Both the position numbers and the translations under genes were made by a program. A stretch of 64,000 nt of DNA from Aquificaceae bacterium (GTDB taxonomy: Bacteria > Aquificota > Aquificia > Aquificales > Aquificaceae), in the NCBI GenBank assembly GCA_037481935.1, contig JBBFKQ010000005.1, positions 62,001 through 126,000 of the forward strand, in the 5' to 3' direction. The notes below the pieces were generated by a model. That model saw nothing but the letters and a program-made list of their open reading frames with translations. It searched no databases and was not told the DNA's origin. Positions 39,445 to 63,364 of the stretch are shown here, piece after piece. Numbering within the stretch: the first letter of the stretch is position 1; the number at the start of each line of letters is the position of its first letter.

Positions 39445-39678
39445 GGCCTCCTCAAGGGCTTTCAGCCCCTTACTTGTCAGGGTATAGGCATCAGCCTCTA
39501 CCTGAAGAAAGCCTGCCTGAGTTAGCTCCCTCAGAGAACTTCTTACTTGAAAGAGAGGGCGGCCCGTTATCTGAGCCGCTTCCTGAGGGCTTACCTTACC
39601 CTTATCCTTGACAAGCTTGAGAAAGGACAGAGCCCTTTCGGAAAGCTTTCCATCCGGGCTTACGCATCCCATGCTCAT
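39433..39678 (-). CDS. Small winged-helix DNA-binding protein
   Basis: 81 residues forming one winged-helix domain: helix [15 protein letters not shown], then [47 protein letters not shown], the typical helix-turn-helix plus beta wing. No effector domain or metal-binding cysteines except Cys5. It starts 3 bases after the peroxiredoxin stop and is likely cotranscribed with it, which hints at a role in oxidative-stress or local regulation; target unknown. Confidence 0.65.
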
Positions 39679-39681
39679 GGC

Positions 39682-40356
39682 TTACCCCAGCTTTTTCTTG
39701 CAGAAATACCAGTCTGCGCATTCGTAGCCATCCCTGAGCCTCTTTATCGCATCCTCATAGGTGACTGGTGGCGGCACGATTACCTTGGTGTTTTCCTCGG
39801 TGAATTCCCATGTCTGTGGTGTGGGCACCCAGTCTGCAGGTGTAGCCACTCCATGCGCATCTGCGGTCTGGAGGGCATCTATGAGCCTGAGTATCTCTCT
39901 CATATTTCTTCCAGCAGACAGCGGGTAGTAGATTATGGCTCTTATCTTTCCGTTTGGGTCTACAATGAACACAGCCCTGACTGTGGCGGTGGAGCTTTCC
40001 CCGGGGTGAAGCATACCGTAGAGCCTTGCCACTTTGCCGTCAGCATCCGCCACTATGGGGAAGGGTATATCCACGCCCAGTTTTTCCTTGATATTCATCA
40101 CCCATGCGATGTGGGAGAAGTTGCTGTCAATGCTCAGCCCCAGAAGCTGGACGTTCCTCTTCTGAAACTCTTCGTAGAGCCTGGCAAAGCCCATAAACTC
40201 TGTGGTGCATACAGGTGTAAAGTCTGCTGGGTGTGAGAAGAAAACAACCCACTGACCCTGAAAGTCCTCAGGGAATCTTATAGGCCCCATGGTGGTCTGG
40301 GCCTCAAAAGCGGGTGCCTGGTCTCCTATCCTTGGCATGCTGACTACCTGCTCCAT
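39682..40356 (-). CDS. Peroxiredoxin of archaeal (Prx6-like) type
   Basis: 224 residues reducing H2O2 and organic peroxides. Peroxidatic Cys50 in DFTPVCTTEF, C-terminal Prx arm with Cys213 and Cys219 in ECADWYFC, as in the Aeropyrum thioredoxin peroxidase where the second Cys resolves the disulfide. The best canonical promoter of the window is upstream: TTGCAA (40419-40414), 16 bases, TATAAT (40397-40392), then AAGGAGGT and ATG. Confidence 0.94.
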   Translation of the reverse strand: MEQVVSMPRIGDQAPAFEAQTTMGPIRFPEDFQGQWVVFFSHPADFTPVCTTEFMGFARLYEEFQKRNVQLLGLSIDSNFSHIAWVMNIKEKLGVDIPFPIVADADGKVARLYGMLHPGESSTATVRAVFIVDPNGKIRAIIYYPLSAGRNMREILRLIDALQTADAHGVATPADWVPTPQTWEFTEENTKVIVPPPVTYEDAIKRLRDGYECADWYFCKKKLG

Positions 40357-43540: not shown

Positions 43541-45961
43541 ATGTCCTATAGAGGTCTAAGTCATGAGGAAGTAGACAGAAGATTAAAGCTATACGGATAC
43601 AATAGCTTGAGAGAAAGAAGGTCATCAGACCTTCAACTTTTCCTTTCTCAGTTTAAAAACCCCTTCATATACCTGCTGATTCTCACAGCTACCTTCTCAT
43701 ACATCCTCGGTGAGACTACAGATACCCTCATAATCCTTCTGATTCTTCTAATCTCTGGTTTTATAGGCTTCCTGCAGGAAAGGTCTGCAAACAGGTCCGT
43801 GGAAAAACTCCTCAGTAGAGTAAAGACCACAGCTATTGTAATTAGAGAGGGGGAAAGGAGAGAAGTTCCGGTTGAGGAAGTGGTTGTTGACGATATTGTG
43901 GTCCTGACTGCAGGCCGCATAGTCCCTGCAGATATTCTTCTCATAGAAGCAAAGGATTTATTCGTAGACGAAGCCTTTCTCACCGGTGAGGCGTATCCCG
44001 TAGAAAAGCGTGAAGGTGAAAGGACTTACATGGGCACGAGTGTCATAAGCGGCTACGGTATTGGTAGAGTTGAAAAGACAGGAAGGAACACGCGATACGG
44101 CCAGGTTGTTGAGAAACTAAAGCATGGAAAAGAAGAAACGGACTTTGAAAAGGGGCTCAGAAACCTTGGTTTTGTTCTATTGCAGATAGCTTCAGCTATG
44201 GTAATAGTGGTCTTTGCAATAAACGCTCATCTCCACAAGGGTGTAATCGACTCCCTTCTATATGCTCTTTCTGTTGGCATAGGGATAACACCCTTTCTGC
44301 TACCGGTTATTGTGAATGTAACCCTTTCTCACAGCGCGAGACTTATAGCAACAAGAGGAATAATAACCAGAAGGCTCTCCTCCCTTTACAATCTAGGGAA
44401 CATGACCATACTCTGCACAGACAAGACAGGAACCCTGACTCAGGGGAAGATGGATGTTCTGGCCTTTCTAAACGCCCTTGGAAAGGAGGATGAAAAAGTC
44501 AGACTTTATGCCTGTCTTAACGCCATGATGCAGACTGGCTACAGAAATCCAATAGACGAAGCCATTAAGTCAAAGTTTAACAAAGAATACCTGGAGGATT
44601 TTACAAAGGCAGATGAAATACCCTTTGATTTTCAGAGAAAAAGGCTTTCCATACTTGTCAGAACAAAAGAAGGGAATTTTATACTCATCACAAAAGGAGC
44701 ATATAAAAACATACTTGAAGTATGCTCTTACGCCTCAGTTGAAGGTAGAATCTTAAGAATAGAAGAATTAAAGGGTAAGATTGAAGAAATCTATCAGAGA
44801 TATAGCGAACAGGGATACAAAGTCATAGCTCTAGCATATAAAGACCTCAGAAAAGATAATATCGCCTACACTGATGAAAGAGAGATGATATTTGGAGGAT
44901 TTATAGTGCTTCATGACCCGATAAAGCAAGACTCAAAGAAAACTATTCAGGAATTAATGGCTCTTGGAGTTGATTTAAGAATAGTAACGGGAGACAATAT
45001 ACTCGTAGCCAAAAAATTTGCAAAGGATTTGGGTCTCCCAGAGAAAATTATATCCGGTGAAGAGCTGAGAAAATATCCAGCGGAGGCTTTGACAGCAATA
45101 GTCAGGGATTTTTATGTTTTTGCAGAACTTGACCCCATGCAGAAGGAAGACATAGTTCTTGCATTAAGAAGGCTTGGTCATGTGGTGGGTTATATGGGCG
45201 ATGGTGCCAATGATTTGCTTGCTATGAGAGCATCAGATGTTGCACTGTCTGTGGAAAATGCAATGGATGTGGTCAAAGAGTCTGCAGATATCGTTTTTTC
45301 AAACCCAGACCTTGCAGGCATAAGGGAAGCAATTGTTGAGGGGAGGAGAGCCTTTTTGAACAGTATGAAGTATTCAAGAATACAGACAAGCTCCAATTTT
45401 GGAAACATGTTGTCTGTGTTGGGTGCTTCCTTTCTTGTGCCTTTCATCCCACTTCTTCCCTATCAGGTTTTAACTTTGAATCTTCTTGCAGACCTATCTT
45501 TCCTGACCCTTCCATCTGATAATGTGGATGAGGAAAAGCTTAAAAAACCAACCTCCTGGGACTTATCAAAGCTCAAGAAGTTTATCGTCTTTTTTGGTCC
45601 TGTAAGCTCTATCTTTGATTACGCAACCTTCTTCTACGCCATGCATATACTCAGGGCAGGGCCGGATACATTCAGGTCTCTCTGGTTTCTTGAAAGCCTT
45701 GTCACTCAGAGCCTCGTCCTCCTCTTCTTAAGAACTGATAAAACTGCCTTTTTACAGAGCAGGCCCTCTAAGGCTCTTGTGCTTACAGTCCTCGGAGTCT
45801 TGAGCTCTGGAGTTTTCCTCCTCTATTCACCCTTTGGAAGGCTCCTTGGGCTATATCCTCTTGGTGTAGAGCAGCTCATCTTCGTGTTCATAGTGACGCT
45901 CTCTTACGTTTTTCTTGTGGAGATGGTAAAAAGGTTATATGCTGCGAGACTCAGTAATTAA
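43541..45961 (+). CDS. P3B-like (MgtA-type) P-type ATPase
   Basis: 806-residue P-type ATPase. TGEAYPVEK actuator loop, phosphorylation Asp294 in CTDKTGTLT, GDGANDLLAM hinge, then M5-M6 with SSNFGNMLSVLGASFLVPF, NLLADLS (647-653) and FFGPVSSIFDYATF, the MgtA/P3B pattern. M4 reads GITPFLLP: the MgtA Glu is Phe252 here, and the hinge has LLAM instead of APAL. Mg2+ transport is suggested by family but the altered site makes the ion uncertain. Overlaps the convergent thioredoxin-fold gene by 11 bases. Confidence 0.82.
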   Translation: MSYRGLSHEEVDRRLKLYGYNSLRERRSSDLQLFLSQFKNPFIYLLILTATFSYILGETTDTLIILLILLISGFIGFLQERSANRSVEKLLSRVKTTAIVIREGERREVPVEEVVVDDIVVLTAGRIVPADILLIEAKDLFVDEAFLTGEAYPVEKREGERTYMGTSVISGYGIGRVEKTGRNTRYGQVVEKLKHGKEETDFEKGLRNLGFVLLQIASAMVIVVFAINAHLHKGVIDSLLYALSVGIGITPFLLPVIVNVTLSHSARLIATRGIITRRLSSLYNLGNMTILCTDKTGTLTQGKMDVLAFLNALGKEDEKVRLYACLNAMMQTGYRNPIDEAIKSKFNKEYLEDFTKADEIPFDFQRKRLSILVRTKEGNFILITKGAYKNILEVCSYASVEGRILRIEELKGKIEEIYQRYSEQGYKVIALAYKDLRKDNIAYTDEREMIFGGFIVLHDPIKQDSKKTIQELMALGVDLRIVTGDNILVAKKFAKDLGLPEKIISGEELRKYPAEALTAIVRDFYVFAELDPMQKEDIVLALRRLGHVVGYMGDGANDLLAMRASDVALSVENAMDVVKESADIVFSNPDLAGIREAIVEGRRAFLNSMKYSRIQTSSNFGNMLSVLGASFLVPFIPLLPYQVLTLNLLADLSFLTLPSDNVDEEKLKKPTSWDLSKLKKFIVFFGPVSSIFDYATFFYAMHILRAGPDTFRSLWFLESLVTQSLVLLFLRTDKTAFLQSRPSKALVLTVLGVLSSGVFLLYSPFGRLLGLYPLGVEQLIFVFIVTLSYVFLVEMVKRLYAARLSN

Positions 45962-56980: not shown

Positions 56981-57400
56981 ATGAAAGAACTCCACCATCC
57001 TCACAGTGACGATGCTTTTAAGGTGCTGAAAGAGTCAAGAGTGGTGGCAGTGATAGGCATTTCTCCAGACCCGGAAAGGCCCTCTTACTATGTGACCGAA
57101 AGGGTCATATCAAAGGGTATTCATAAAGTCTACCTTGTGAACCCCAAGTATGCAGGGCAGGAAATACTGGGTGTTAAGGTCCTTTCTTCCCTTTCTGATG
57201 TGCCAGAGACTGTGGATATTGTCAACGTTTTCAGAAACCCGGCACACATAGAGCCCATCCTTCAGGAGGCCCTTCAGGTGGGGGCAAGGTGTGTGTGGCT
57301 TCAGCCTGGCTGTGAAAACCCTGAGGTTATAGAAAAGTATAAGGATAAAATAAACATAGTCTGGAACGCCTGTATAGGCGTTGAGGCAGGTTATCTTTAA
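56981..57400 (+). CDS. CoA-binding domain protein (YccU-like)
   Basis: 139-residue single Rossmann domain related to the CoA-binding half of succinyl-CoA synthetase alpha: VAVIGISPDPERPSYYV, VYLVNPKY, VDIVNVFRNPAHI, VWLQPGCENPEV. YccU-type proteins are widespread with no proven activity. Leaderless-type start 8 bases after TGTTATAAT. Last gene before an AT-rich island. Confidence 0.88.
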   Translation: MKELHHPHSDDAFKVLKESRVVAVIGISPDPERPSYYVTERVISKGIHKVYLVNPKYAGQEILGVKVLSSLSDVPETVDIVNVFRNPAHIEPILQEALQVGARCVWLQPGCENPEVIEKYKDKINIVWNACIGVEAGYL

Positions 57401-57468
57401 AGGTTAGTAAATTCCAACGTGTTGATTCCTTTCAATAAGTCAGCCCTCATGATTTTCTCAGACCTTGC
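57401..57468. other. Junction between core genes and AT-rich island
   Basis: 68 bases between convergent genes. I see no integrase site, direct repeat or terminator. Confidence 0.3.
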
Positions 57469-58437
57469 TTAGAAAAGCAATTTAGACAAAAGTTTGTCTT
57501 TAAGCTTATGATACACTAACATCAACTTGTAAAACTTAGAAGCCTTTATTGCATGAAGCTCTGTTATTTGCTCTTCATACTTTAGTTTCTCCTCTTCACA
57601 CTGTTTCCAGAGTTCAAACTTCTCTTTATGAAGTCTTGCTATTTCCGTATCTCTCTTGCTCAATTCATCTTCTAGATACCTTGCATAACCTATGATGTGG
57701 TATATGTGTTTAACTTTGCTGTATTTGTAGAATTCTTGACCTCTCGCAAAGATATCTCCCATCACATATTGAACAATCTCTGATAGATCCCAATTATCCT
57801 CGAGCAATATAAAGCTTTCATAATATTTTGCATTCTGCCCGAAAATAAACCCATTAAATTTTCTTACAGCAAGGTTAAAAAATTCAGCATTACTGATTAG
57901 AGCAGAGCATTCACTGTATATGTGCAGGGCTTGAACAATCGTATCAACATAACTTGATATATCTATATTAAAATTTCCGGGAATATAGCTATACACAGAA
58001 TAAAAAGCGAACTTTTTGGGATAAAGCTTAATATGTAAGTTTGTGCATACTTCACCTATGGCTCTGTTGTCTTGATGAAAGTCAAACACAGCAGGGCACA
58101 AAATTAGGTCTATACCTTTTTGCAATAGGAAATCTGTCAGCTCTTGCTCTAAGCTTTCTTTGTATTCTTTCAACCTGTTGCTGGGATACTTCCAGAATTC
58201 TGCATGATTATATCCGAGCATTTCCTTAACCATGGTCACTTTATCTATCCAAGCTTCTGAAGTGTGCTTTCCTCCATAGTCTGATAAAAACAAAACACTA
58301 ACATCTTTACCACATTCCACCAAGAAGCGTATACTACCACCACACCCTAAAAGTTCATCACCGGGGCGTGGAGCAATTACCAGCACATTTCTTATCCTTT
58401 CTATATCCCATTCCTTTTGTTTAATAAGCTCAGCCAT
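57469..58437 (-). CDS. PIG-L family protein with altered active site and C-terminal coiled coil
   Basis: 322 residues. The N-terminal 220 residues have the PIG-L/LmbE deacetylase fold: VIAPRPGDELLGCGG (20-34) and FHQDNRAIG (120-128). In active enzymes the first motif reads PHPDDE; here Arg24 replaces the zinc His and Gly26 the catalytic Asp, while Asp27-Glu28 and His121 remain. A coiled coil of about 50 residues (255-305) follows. It could be an inactive homolog or use another metal set. Start overlaps the GT4 gene by 37 bases, so both likely act on one glycan. Confidence 0.75.
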   Translation of the reverse strand: MAELIKQKEWDIERIRNVLVIAPRPGDELLGCGGSIRFLVECGKDVSVLFLSDYGGKHTSEAWIDKVTMVKEMLGYNHAEFWKYPSNRLKEYKESLEQELTDFLLQKGIDLILCPAVFDFHQDNRAIGEVCTNLHIKLYPKKFAFYSVYSYIPGNFNIDISSYVDTIVQALHIYSECSALISNAEFFNLAVRKFNGFIFGQNAKYYESFILLEDNWDLSEIVQYVMGDIFARGQEFYKYSKVKHIYHIIGYARYLEDELSKRDTEIARLHKEKFELWKQCEEEKLKYEEQITELHAIKASKFYKLMLVYHKLKDKLLSKLLF

Positions 58438-59465
58438 TTTCTTTTCCAGATCTCCTTGTTAAAGAATTTATTAGCTATATACCTTCCATACCTCCTTATA
58501 TGTTTTCTAAAGTTTATGTCTTCTACCAGTTTGATTATCTCCATAAACCTATCTACCGTATCCAGAGTGTTTTTTTGATTTGGTTCACCAAGACTTAGAT
58601 GAGGTAATAATTTTGATAAACCGTTGAAGATACCAGTTTCGTAAGCAATAACTGGCCTACCGCATGCAAGTGCCTCCACAGAAGTGAACCCAAAGCCCTC
58701 GTACCTGGAGGGAAAAAACACGAAGTCAACTTTGTTGTATATGTAAGGCATATCTTCATGAGGTATACTTTTATACGTTTGGATTTCTTCTATCTCAGCA
58801 TATTCTCTTAATCCACCTGTGGATAAACACTGTACCCATTCTATATAGGTTTGCGTTCTCTTGTACACTTCAATAAATATATCATAGCCCTTGGTGGCAT
58901 CAGTTCTACCAACATATAATCCTTTAAGCTTTTTGCTTTTGCTAAATTCGTTTTCTAAATTCAAAGGCTTAAAGACATTTGTATCAACAAAGTTTCTTAT
59001 AGTGATTATTCTTCCCGTCCTAAAATGTCTACGTAGGCTTGAAGTAACACTTGAACTAACAGACACCACTTTCTTACCTGAATATGTGAAATCTTCCATT
59101 AAACCAAGCCTATAATAAAAGTCAAGATAATCACACTTATTTAGAAAATTCCGGCATACATTTGCAATATCACGATATACACCATGACAGATATTTAAAA
59201 TTTTATTAATGTCCATCTCAATAAAGGCCCCATATATAGAATTACTTATTATAAAATCATACTTGTCTGCTTTTTCTTTGATTATACGAGCATGATTATA
59301 ATAATCTTCAAGTTTATAGGGCGTGAGCCCATGTTTTTCAAAGAAATCCACATCCACATGCCAGCCTTCTTCCTTCAATACGCCATACAAATTTAAGACA
59401 TAAGTTTCTATACCCCCGCTCCATTGAAACGGGTTGGGGCCTGTTACTATAAGAACACTACCCAT
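58401..59465 (-). CDS. GT4 family glycosyltransferase
   Basis: 354 residues, GT-B fold. N-terminal GGIETYVLNLYGVL, middle RNFVDTNVFKPL, GLYVGRTDATKGYDIF and the C-terminal E-x7-E nucleotide-sugar motif EGFGFTSVEALACGRPVIAYE. Retaining glycosyltransferase of family GT4; donor and acceptor unknown. Opens the minus-strand pair with the PIG-L-like gene. Divergent from the double GT over 119 bases. Confidence 0.88.
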   Translation of the reverse strand: MGSVLIVTGPNPFQWSGGIETYVLNLYGVLKEEGWHVDVDFFEKHGLTPYKLEDYYNHARIIKEKADKYDFIISNSIYGAFIEMDINKILNICHGVYRDIANVCRNFLNKCDYLDFYYRLGLMEDFTYSGKKVVSVSSSVTSSLRRHFRTGRIITIRNFVDTNVFKPLNLENEFSKSKKLKGLYVGRTDATKGYDIFIEVYKRTQTYIEWVQCLSTGGLREYAEIEEIQTYKSIPHEDMPYIYNKVDFVFFPSRYEGFGFTSVEALACGRPVIAYETGIFNGLSKLLPHLSLGEPNQKNTLDTVDRFMEIIKLVEDINFRKHIRRYGRYIANKFFNKEIWKRKWLSLLNKRNGI

Positions 59466-59584
59466 TTGGAATCCTTAGCAGCACATAAGCTTGTTGATAT
59501 TATACATTAACATATAGAATGGTAGTATAATTATCTTTCAAATGACATATTCGACAAGGTTTTTAAGTTTGGAGGCGCCATTCT
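59466..59584. promoter_or_regulatory. Divergent promoter region in the glycan island
   Basis: 119 bases. Minus TATAAT (59504-59499) and plus TATAAT (59526-59531) both sit at normal distance with leaders; TTGGAGG precedes the plus-strand ATG and AAGGATT the minus-strand one. This leadered layout differs from the leaderless style outside the island. Confidence 0.5.
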
Positions 59585-62287
59585 ATGAAGGAAGGTAAAA
59601 ATATAATTCTTGTGCATAAAGTTTTCCCCATTAACCTTGAAGGTGTGTCGGGTGGGGCTGAAACCGTCATGCTCGAAATGGCGCAGGCCCTTAAAAATAG
59701 AGGCTGGAATGTTTATTTTTTTGGACATTTTCTCAATTTAAACGCTTATTTTGAGGGTATAAATTTTATAAATTTTGGAGAAGACTTTCAACTTGCTGAA
59801 GTTTTCAAAAATTACAAAAATATTGAATTTGAAGCCTGTATTTCCGTTCACGCATTTCCAATAAAGGTTTTACTGAGCTTCAACAATATCAGAAGATTCT
59901 TTCTGTATCCTCATGATATGAGTTTTATAGAGCACAGAGTTAGCCCAGAATTTATCAATAAGCACGTGGACGGTGTCATATGTTTATCAGAATATCAGAA
60001 GAATGCTTATGCTGAATGGGGTATAGTGCAAGATAAACTAATAAAGATTCCATACGGTATAGATACAGAATTTTACAAGCCAACACCTCACGTCAAGAGA
60101 AATCATAAAAAAATAATGTTTGCAGGAGCTACAATAAGGTCTAAGGGCATATATGTGTTGATAGATGCATTTAAGAAACTCAAAAAGGATATGGAAGATG
60201 TCGAGTTGCATATATATGGAGACTCAAGCCTTTGGGGACTTGAAGAAAACGTTGATAGTAGAATTAACATTCCAGGATTATTCTTTCACGGCAAAGTCGG
60301 CAAATCTGAACTGATAAAAGCATACAGTGAATCTGCTTTGTGTATAGTACCTACAATACCAGAACTATACAAGGAATCTCTGCCTAGGTCTGCCATTGAG
60401 GCTCAGGCGTGTGGCTGTCCTGTAGTAGGGTCAGAAAGTGGAGGTTTACCAGAAACCTTTTTGCACACAAAAACAGGATTTCTTGTCAAACCAATTAATG
60501 TAGATAACCTTTATAAAGTTATAAAGACTGCTATAGGCGATGAAGAAAGATTGAAAAAGATGTCAGAAAATGCCATGAAATTTGTAAGAGAAAATTTTTC
60601 AATGGATAAACAAATCAAACAGCTTGAAGAATACATCTTATCAATAAAACCTGAACTAAATAAAATAGATAGAATAAGCTATAATAATTTAAACATTCTT
60701 TTCTATGTAGAAGTTCCTCTCATGCCTTCAAAAACTTCTTCATGTAGAAGAAACTACGAAATACTTAAAACTCTGCTTGATTTAGGAGCTAGAGTGACAT
60801 ACTCTCATGGTTTTTTCGTAAAAGGTTCAGAAAAAGAAATAAAAGAACTCTTGCATATTTACAAAAATTTCAACATAAGGAGTCCGTTATACGAAAATTT
60901 TTCCATGATTGGTTTTCACGATATTCTATGGATAACAGAGGTATGGGACTACAGGAGACTTCGCAAGGCTGTTGGTTTGGCAAGAAGGGCTAAACTCGTA
61001 TACAACATGCCTGTAGTGTACGATGCTATGGACAGCCTATACAAGCATTATGATAGAGCCAAACTTGCGGGGGAAATTCTAAAGGAGAAAGAGCTTGAAT
61101 CCATAAAAATACTAGAACAAGAAATGTATAAACTCGCTGACATAGTTATTGTTGTCTCTGAAGAGGAAAAAAACTACATAGTTGAAAATTTTGATATATC
61201 TCCTGAAAAAATTGTCATAGTAAGAAATATTCATGATCCAGCCGAATATTCTCATAATTATGGTAAGACTGTATGTTTTGTAGGCGGATTGATGAACTTC
61301 AATAACCTCTTGGCTATTAAGTTTTTTCTCAATAATATATACCATCATGTTCTGAAAAAAGACTCTGATATAGAGTTTTATGTAATTGGTGATAGAACAG
61401 AAATGTTAAAGCTTGAAGAACTGGTAGAAGATAAGAGCTTATTAGAACTTTATAGAAATAAAGTTCATTTCATAGGCTGGATAGAGGATGTGGGTAAAGA
61501 ATTGAAAAGGCATGCCCTTACAGTTGCCCCAATGGTTTCCGGCTCTGGTATAAAGGGTAAAATACTGAACAGTCTTGAATATGGTGTGCCTGTTGTAACA
61601 ACACCTCTGGGTGCCGAAGGTCTTCCAGAGATCACAAAATCTGGCATAGTTATAGCGGAAGGTCCAGAAGAGTTTGCTAAAAAAGTAGTAGAAATAGTAA
61701 AAAACGATGAGTTAAGATGGTCACTGTCTAGAAAAGCCACAGCATACGTAAAAGAATGGTTCTCTAAAGATAGAGCCAGAGAAACTCTTGAACGTATTTT
61801 GCCGATGATTCAAAAAGCTATAAGGGTAAACTTTGCCTTGGCAAGACCTTACAGATATAAACTTGTGGATGACTACAATCTAATCCTGCCAGAAAATTAC
61901 ACACGCGTGGATGACCTTATGGAGGTAATTGGTATGACTCTAGACCAACATAGGTATGAATATCCTGACATAATTCGCTTCAGTTATCTAGATATTTATA
62001 ATACAGAACCTTGGTTGAAACCAGATGCTATAAATGAGGGATCTTGGTTTAGCATATGCGCATGCATGCCTGCTCTTGTAAGGAAGGGCGTGGAGCTTAC
62101 CATGCTTGAGGGGGGCAGATTAACTTATGTATATTCGGACTTACCAATTTGTTATATGGAGCATTCTGCAAGAGATGTAAGAAATAAAATTATAGAATTT
62201 GGCCTTAAATATAAAATGTTGTTTAAAAAACATCCTTTGGTTGAAAAAATGGCAAAAAAAATATATGAATATTTAAGAAAACAATGA
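59585..62287 (+). CDS. Tandem double GT4 glycosyltransferase with extra C-terminal domain
   Basis: 900 residues. Domain 1 (about 1-355) is a full GT4 unit: GGAETVMLEMAQAL, KIMFAGATIRSKGIYVLIDAF and the E-x7-E motif in KESLPRSAIEAQACGCPVVG. Domain 2 (about 366-735) is a second GT-B unit with VYDAMDSLYKHYDR, VCFVGGLMNFNN and GSGIKGKILNSLEYGVPVV. The last about 165 residues (LARPYRYKLVDDYN..., SICACMPALVRKG) match nothing I know. It may add two sugars in turn. Ribosome binding site GGAGG 10 bases before ATG. Confidence 0.82.
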   Translation: MKEGKNIILVHKVFPINLEGVSGGAETVMLEMAQALKNRGWNVYFFGHFLNLNAYFEGINFINFGEDFQLAEVFKNYKNIEFEACISVHAFPIKVLLSFNNIRRFFLYPHDMSFIEHRVSPEFINKHVDGVICLSEYQKNAYAEWGIVQDKLIKIPYGIDTEFYKPTPHVKRNHKKIMFAGATIRSKGIYVLIDAFKKLKKDMEDVELHIYGDSSLWGLEENVDSRINIPGLFFHGKVGKSELIKAYSESALCIVPTIPELYKESLPRSAIEAQACGCPVVGSESGGLPETFLHTKTGFLVKPINVDNLYKVIKTAIGDEERLKKMSENAMKFVRENFSMDKQIKQLEEYILSIKPELNKIDRISYNNLNILFYVEVPLMPSKTSSCRRNYEILKTLLDLGARVTYSHGFFVKGSEKEIKELLHIYKNFNIRSPLYENFSMIGFHDILWITEVWDYRRLRKAVGLARRAKLVYNMPVVYDAMDSLYKHYDRAKLAGEILKEKELESIKILEQEMYKLADIVIVVSEEEKNYIVENFDISPEKIVIVRNIHDPAEYSHNYGKTVCFVGGLMNFNNLLAIKFFLNNIYHHVLKKDSDIEFYVIGDRTEMLKLEELVEDKSLLELYRNKVHFIGWIEDVGKELKRHALTVAPMVSGSGIKGKILNSLEYGVPVVTTPLGAEGLPEITKSGIVIAEGPEEFAKKVVEIVKNDELRWSLSRKATAYVKEWFSKDRARETLERILPMIQKAIRVNFALARPYRYKLVDDYNLILPENYTRVDDLMEVIGMTLDQHRYEYPDIIRFSYLDIYNTEPWLKPDAINEGSWFSICACMPALVRKGVELTMLEGGRLTYVYSDLPICYMEHSARDVRNKIIEFGLKYKMLFKKHPLVEKMAKKIYEYLRKQ

Positions 62288-62302
62288 AATATTAAAGCAT
62301 AT

Positions 62303-63364
62303 TCAGAATACCACCATATTATCTATATGCATTACTTCTTCCTTGCTGGTCTTTAAAATCTTTTTTACTTCCTCTCCTTTTTTTCTGATGATTCTCAACA
62401 CCTCCTCGAAGCTGAAGTTTACCCTTCCCTTTCCTACGAGAAAGCCTCTCTCGTCGTAGAGAACCACCACATCTCCCCTCTGAAAGGCACCTTCTACTTT
62501 CCTTATGCCGGCAGGAAGAAGGCTTTTTCCCTGCTTTATGGCTCTGTATGCCCCTTCATCTATGTATATGGCACCTTTTGGTTCTTCAAGCATGGCGAGG
62601 GCTTTTTTACCCTCTTTAAGAGGTTTTGGAGATGGCCTGAAATAGGTGCCAGCAGTCCTTCCTTCCATAATCTGAAGGAGGCTGTCATTCTTGCCAGTTA
62701 TCACCACCGGAATACCAAGCCTGATGGCTATGCGTGAGGCAGTTATCTTGCTCAGCATACCGCCAGTGCCAAACTGGGAGTTTACACCCTTTACAAGATG
62801 GAGAACACCATCCACATCCTCCACCAGAGGCACAACCCTGCCCTCTTCATCCAAGAGCCCACCTGCAGTGGAAAAGACCACTATAAGGTCGGCCTTCATC
62901 ATGTAAGCGGTGTGAACTGCAAGAAAGTCGTTATCTCCAAAAAGAAGCTCAGATATGGCTACCGTGTCGTTTTCGTTTATTATGGGCACTATACCAAGAG
63001 AAAGCATACTGCTGAGGGCGTTTTTTGCGTTCTGAAACTTTTCTCTATCCTTGAAAATATCTGCAGTGAGAAGAGCCTGACCTACTGTCAGTCCATAGTT
63101 GGAAAAGACCATATCGTAAAGGTGCATAAGGTATGCCTGGCCAACGCCCGCCACTGCCTGCTTTATGCTGAGTTCTCCCGGCCTTTCGCCCAGGCCGAGC
63201 TTTTTTACTCCACAGAGAACTGCCCCAGATGAGACTATTAGAGCCCTGTGATTTTTTTCTCTCAGTTTCTTTACCTCCCCTGCAAGCCTTGAGAGAAAGC
63301 TCAGGTCTATGTCCCCCTCCTCTGTCTGTATGAGGTTTGAACCAATCTTCACCACAAGAAGCAT
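62303..63364 (-). CDS. proB: Glutamate 5-kinase
   Basis: Phosphorylates glutamate at the start of proline synthesis. 353 residues: amino acid kinase domain (about 1-255) with KIGSNLI, IVSSGAV, INENDTVA and FGDNDFLAVHTA, ASRIA and a C-terminal PUA domain (about 275-350). ATG 63364 is 4 bases after TATAAT, so the mRNA is probably leaderless. Returns to core GC content after the island. Confidence 0.96.
   Translation of the reverse strand: MLLVVKIGSNLIQTEEGDIDLSFLSRLAGEVKKLREKNHRALIVSSGAVLCGVKKLGLGERPGELSIKQAVAGVGQAYLMHLYDMVFSNYGLTVGQALLTADIFKDREKFQNAKNALSSMLSLGIVPIINENDTVAISELLFGDNDFLAVHTAYMMKADLIVVFSTAGGLLDEEGRVVPLVEDVDGVLHLVKGVNSQFGTGGMLSKITASRIAIRLGIPVVITGKNDSLLQIMEGRTAGTYFRPSPKPLKEGKKALAMLEEPKGAIYIDEGAYRAIKQGKSLLPAGIRKVEGAFQRGDVVVLYDERGFLVGKGRVNFSFEEVLRIIRKKGEEVKKILKTSKEEVMHIDNMVVF

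Follow-up and report, generated by a model that had tools for sequence, protein, structure and literature searches.

An inserted AT-rich glycan gene cassette with a degenerate PIG-L-type protein in an Aquificaceae genome

Two kinds of described systems come closest to the locus considered here. According to two studies, the lipid-linked chain of ABC-exported O antigens is built by a double-glycosyltransferase polymerase, by separate glycosyltransferases and by a protein that combines a head with a coiled coil, and an extra domain of Wzt reads the finished chain end (PMC11231755, PMC3482155). The LmbE-type enzymes share an HXD1D2 motif and a further H, of which two His and one Asp are the metal ligands and D1 is the general base; in PMC4101496, this set is common to all ten enzymes of its Table 1. 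The locus described below recalls both. It lies in a 64-kb stretch of DNA, which was analysed as a whole and is termed the window, from an Aquificaceae-type genome of 1.69 Mb in 26 contigs. The relevant features are as follows:

56981..57400, plus strand: left flank, CoA-binding protein (Pfam)
57401..62302, 4,902 bp: AT-rich insert that separates the stop codon of the CoA-binding gene from that of proB (empty-site comparison and composition)
57469..58437, minus strand: PIG-L/LmbE-fold protein, 322 aa, with a degenerate HXDD+H site and a predicted long C-terminal helix, residues 242-321 (Pfam PF02585, alignments, model, fold search)
58401..58437, minus strand: the 3' end of the GT4 gene overlaps the 5' end of the PIG-L gene by 37 nt (likewise 37 nt in 6/6 related pairs)
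58401..59465, minus strand: GT4 glycosyltransferase, 354 aa (Pfam PF00534/PF13692/PF13439, alignments)
59585..62287, plus strand: double GT4 glycosyltransferase, 900 aa, plus a C-terminal part of ~150 aa (Pfam, two glycosyltransferase stretches)
62303..63364, minus strand: right flank, proB, glutamate 5-kinase with AA_kinase and PUA domains (Pfam)

The insert and its empty site

The segment 57401-62302 is a real insertion. By the ORF list and Pfam, it consists of three ORFs, namely a PIG-L-type gene and a GT4 gene on the minus strand and a gene for a two-module GT4 chain on the plus strand, which agrees with the preliminary description of an AT-rich three-gene glycan island with a stand-alone glycosyltransferase, a double glycosyltransferase and a PIG-L-like protein. 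In 500-nt blocks, the insert has a GC content of 35.3%, as compared to a mean of 46.8% for the whole window, and its three genes range from 34.9 to 35.9%, below the minimum of 40.5% among the other 45 window ORFs of at least 200 aa (mean 47.8%, sd 2.7). The comparison of codon usage, which had been suggested along with that of GC content, likewise sets the insert apart: the codon-usage distance of its three pooled genes is 0.156, whereas 500 equally large sets of randomly drawn native genes reach 0.073 at most. The further claim that promoters become leadered was not borne out, as a consensus scan found 14 promoter-like sites versus 19.7 +/- 4.7 in shuffles. Two other places in the window are unusual in their composition. 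A P-type ATPase-like gene at 43541-45961, named by reading its sequence, has 42% GC and includes a block of 35.6%, the lowest value outside the island, and an ORF at 39547-40236 has the most unusual codon use of the 45 native ORFs (0.164) and may be spurious.

The flanking genes were searched in 61 genomes (the own genome and 60 others) and are adjacent in 16 relatives, all of which were fetched. In 15 of these 16, the site is empty, with the CoA-binding gene and proB arranged tail to tail and separated by 2-13 nt. The sixteenth relative, G013, carries a different insert of 483 nt at the junction (L095:2400-2882, 36% GC), with one ORF of 147 aa that has no Pfam match. The empty sites together with this insert imply that the convergent junction has taken at least two different AT-rich inserts, and it may be a repeated landing place. 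Among the 13 congeners, which include two genomes of low completeness (G001, 75%, and G011, 65%), the junction was seen in 12 (11 empty, one with the other insert), and G005 yielded neither flanking gene; at the thresholds of the phylum search, none of the 13 has the PIG-L, GT4 or double GT4 gene of the insert. The comparison of the gmk-proB interval in relatives thus did not find the same genes with the same composition conserved at this site across the family, which had been named as the outcome that would speak against an exchangeable island. The empty site, the absence from 13/13 congeners and the occurrence of related genes elsewhere in the genomes of other genera all fit the island as it had been described, and the empty sites and the composition point to horizontal transfer of the cassette. 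A mobile element was considered and rejected, as there is no recombinase among the ORFs and there are no end-to-end flanking direct repeats. The double GT4 has no match in plasmids, and the PIG-L protein none in phages. Surface-glycan cassettes are commonly gained and lost, and the insertion in itself is therefore ordinary.

Glycosyltransferases and a PIG-L-type protein without its metal site

In the 900-aa protein, matches to PF00534, PF13692 and PF13439 occur in two stretches, which represent two GT4 modules; the structure model of its C-terminal part has a mean pLDDT of 31.7 and no usable fold. This double GT4 is present in 5 of 136 phylum genomes, namely the own genome and G019, G034, G079 and G080, the latter four all of genus g7, and it is 55-57% identical to the two Hydrogenobacter-group copies that were aligned. 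In the g7 loci, the double GT4 gene and the GT4-PIG-L pair converge, with two genes between them. Close relatives of the 354-aa GT4 were found in 7 of the 136 genomes, i.e. in the same five, in G021 and in G028, in which a contig end truncates the gene. As read from its sequence, the window GT4 has an intact EX7E motif, which we take to be the relevant motif of such enzymes. In the tree, it groups with G021 of genus g9 (91/90), whose locus has two other glycosyltransferases and no double GT4. The window PIG-L protein groups with its own-genome paralog (92/92), and G021 follows weakly (75/83, long branch). As the kin of the three genes thus differ, with the double GT4 shared only with g7, the GT4 related to G021 and the PIG-L protein to its own paralog, the island is best read as a mosaic. 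In G034, two tandem GT4 copies lie upstream of the PIG-L gene (L091:13315-15471), and their grouping in the tree (97/99) points to a duplication of recent date.

At E values up to 1e-12, 12 of the 136 phylum genomes have PIG-L relatives. In six of these, a long form with the C-terminal part adjoins the GT4 gene, and the other relatives are shorter frames of 228-235 aa or part of a 929-aa frame (G093). A scan of the named genomes with the window PIG-L sequence found no relative. In all six loci of the pair, which represent three genera (G000, the own genome, and G019, G034, G079, G080, G021), the PIG-L gene begins 37 nt before the GT4 gene ends, although this count depends on the start choice for G080 and G021, where the frame has an earlier start codon than the one at 37 nt. 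The fixed overlap suggests that the two genes are translationally coupled.

That the PIG-L protein belongs to the LmbE-type fold is indicated by its match to PF02585 (E 5.8e-10, 40.2 bits, cutoff 28.2) and by a Foldseek search with its model, in which the top PDB matches are LmbE-type deacetylases; the mean pLDDT of this model is only 54.8, with values mostly of 64-92 in the head (residues 11-149), a poor middle and a C-terminal helix at 242-321. An assignment to bacillithiol genes was rejected, as the BshA/BshB matches scored 30.6 versus 182.5 and 38.8 and 99.6 versus 273.7, the NCBIfam cut-offs. Three codons mark the degenerate site:

58366..58368, minus strand: codon of residue 24, Arg in place of the expected metal-ligand His (alignment; motif as given in PMC4101496)
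58360..58362, minus strand: codon of residue 26, Gly in place of the expected general-base Asp (alignment)
58066..58068, minus strand: codon of residue 124, Asn in place of the expected metal-ligand His (alignment)

The protein has R-P-G-D at the HXDD position and N at the last ligand (residues 24, 26, 27 and 124), which means that one of four site residues is kept, and that the general base is missing in the alignment along with two of the three metal ligands. Residue 27 is still the ligand Asp, and the conserved Glu as well as the His-x-Asp in the second motif are likewise kept. The G021 protein, for which Pfam gives no match, has D-P-R-D; a conserved His close by is replaced by Ser, and the last His is retained. 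The loss of H and D1 in these two lineages may be due to one event or two. All four site residues are intact in the four g7 proteins and in the same-genome paralog. As HXD1D2 + H is not found in the window protein, we do not file it as a deacetylase, and the loss of the classical metal site makes it probable that it is a non-catalytic partner, which would act structurally via its C-terminal helical part. Among the papers listed in our literature searches, none has a title on a PIG-L pseudoenzyme, and those listed for Wzt, terminators, coiled coils and polysaccharide chains do not use the word deacetylase.

Does the protein still have a role, or is it decaying? A selective loss of the catalytic site, which could serve as a pseudoenzyme signature, is unsupported for the window and G021 proteins (p=1 for both): in the window protein, 3/7 catalytic residues are lost versus 12/29 of the other invariant head residues. 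Compared with its relatives, the window protein lacks about 20 residues at the C-terminus, a C-terminal heptad pattern is significant in 2/7 homologs (the C6 paralog and G021) with p=0.10 for the window protein, and neither its amphipathic tail nor its coiled coil reaches significance. These observations together mean that decay is possible. Both glycosyltransferases could be active while the PIG-L protein is a passenger whose head site was lost as nothing needs it, perhaps after the paralog took over. In favour of this are the equal rate at which catalytic and other invariant head residues have been lost, the shortened C-terminus, the longer branch to the window protein (1.01 versus 0.67 for the paralog) and the intact paralog in the same genome. 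On the other hand, the frame is open across 322 codons, the start and the 37-nt overlap are preserved, and 8/10 coil/tail invariants are kept as compared to 21/36 in the head (p=0.28). Moreover, G021 represents a second lineage that also lost site residues, yet it keeps 9/10 coil/tail versus 16/36 head invariants (p=0.013). We regard decay as unlikely, but as an explanation that deserves serious attention, and return to a non-catalytic partner as the preferred reading of the PIG-L protein.

Co-occurrence with a Wzm/Wzt exporter

Genes for a Wzm permease and a Wzt ATPase are present in the host genome on a contig other than that of the cassette. There, a second AT-rich island (L093; 34% GC as compared to 48% in its flanks) lies within type II secretion-like genes and encodes Wzt (ABC_tran and Wzt_C), an ABC-2 permease (ABC2_membrane), an initiating-type sugar transferase (Bac_transf), a glycosyltransferase, a GNAT protein and the intact PIG-L paralog. 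When the own Wzt was searched in the 136 phylum genomes, 19 had a match at 1e-50. The six best matches, delimited by a threshold that was set after the matches were seen, all reach E values of at most 7.5e-120 (identity 48-54%, leaving the own copy aside), the next best being at 41% identity and 5e-85, and the six genomes are exactly those with the intact GT4-PIG-L pair (6/136). The naive chance of this exact co-occurrence is about 1 in 8e9, but the cut was chosen afterwards and four of the genomes belong to one genus, so that only about three independent gains are represented. Both the pair and this Wzt subfamily are absent from G027 of genus g7 and from 13/13 congeners of the window genome; a possible exception is G028, which has the GT4 relative but no Wzt at 1e-50. 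In none of the genomes seen does the exporter lie next to the cassette. The earlier suggestion that the cassette may complete a glycan made elsewhere gains indirect support from the own-genome exporter island and from the exact match between the genomes with the pair and those with a Wzt subfamily whose gene lies at a different locus. The degenerate PIG-L site, the fixed overlap and the mosaic make-up of the island had no place in that earlier description.

Some surroundings of these exporter genes may be mentioned. Wzt directly follows a pseudopilin-type gene in two genera (L093:5666-7290 and L188:9261-10898; T2SSG in one, a weak match to N_methyl in the other), type II secretion-like genes are interleaved with the exporter island at L093:531-14829, together with a second PilM-like/T2SSF set at 32% GC, and a fused cytidylyltransferase-aminotransferase of 678 aa, which looks like activated amino-sugar-acid synthesis, is encoded near Wzt in a Hydrogenobacter genome (L186:4859-6895).

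We propose, with a confidence that is evenly balanced, that the insert is an acquired mosaic glycan-assembly cassette that serves a Wzm/Wzt-exported surface polysaccharide and includes a non-catalytic PIG-L partner. Most likely, the two glycosyltransferase proteins would act in the cytoplasm to elongate a lipid-linked glycan, possibly with the double GT4 as a polymerase-like enzyme, and the Wzm/Wzt exporter from the other locus would then move the glycan out. Any deacetylation could be carried out by the intact PIG-L paralog of the exporter island. A more far-reaching idea, which is speculative and rather doubtful, is that PIG-L proteins extended by a C-terminal helical part and co-translated with GT4 represent a new kind of chain-end or chain-length factor in the making of Wzm/Wzt-exported glycans, in which the head would deacetylate the chain end in most lineages and would have become a non-catalytic scaffold or reader, i.e. 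a pseudoenzyme, in the window and G021 lineages.

What alternatives exist for such a link to the exporter? The cassette could, as had also been suggested at first, glycosylate a surface or secreted protein, such as a pilin, pseudopilin, S-layer protein or flagellin, without any ABC exporter. The small number of its genes and the position of Wzt next to a pseudopilin-type gene in two genera would be in line with this, but neither an acceptor protein nor an oligosaccharyltransferase or a flagellar protein is encoded in the insert, and the statistical link is with the exporter ATPase, which makes protein glycosylation improbable. Quite improbable, too, is a modification of the LPS core or of another short glycolipid that is unrelated to Wzm/Wzt, with a co-occurrence that results from shared ancestry and transfer-rich strains. 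The restriction of the pair to three genera, with four of six genomes from one genus, and the lack of linkage between cassette loci and Wzt could be explained in this way, but genus members without the pair are also without that Wzt (G027 and the 13/13 congeners of the window genome). Finally, it is very unlikely that the window PIG-L protein is still an active deacetylase with a rearranged metal site, as it lacks H, D1 and also the last H, and ten of ten Table 1 enzymes in PMC4101496 use HXD1D2 + H, even though Asp 27, the conserved Glu and the second-motif His-x-Asp remain and the Pfam PIG-L threshold is still passed.

With regard to the proposed exporter-linked cassette, a PIG-L pseudoenzyme that is locked to a glycosyltransferase by a fixed overlap and that tracks one exporter ATPase across unlinked loci could matter. 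If the link holds, it would introduce a testable new kind of helper in the assembly of ABC-exported glycans, and split glycan pathways of thermophiles could be traced by co-occurrence.

Comparison with known systems

In its layout, the cassette resembles an ABC-exported O-antigen system, which is a likeness rather than an established membership. As in the E. coli O9a system of WbdA, WbdD, Wzm and Wzt, there are a protein with two GT4 modules, a separate GT4 and an enzyme-fold head with a C-terminal helical region, and a Wzt with a C-terminal Wzt_C domain is encoded in the same genomes. The head differs from that of O9a, however, as it has a PIG-L fold that is apparently dead in the window protein and is neither a kinase nor a methyltransferase; furthermore, the exporter and assembly genes are unlinked, and the coiled coil of the window protein is without statistical support. 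With the LmbE-like/PIG-L deacetylases (TT1542, BshB, diacetylchitobiose deacetylase), the window PIG-L protein shares the fold and the family profile, but it has an extra C-terminal helix, and its gene overlaps that of a glycosyltransferase. The g7 locus, as represented by Hydrogenobacter sp. RSWP5 (L125) and by the 1.74-Mb genome G080, likewise has a double GT4, and its GT4 and PIG-L genes have the same 37-nt overlap. It lies at another chromosomal site, its genes converge with two genes between them, whereas those of the window diverge, and its PIG-L site is intact.
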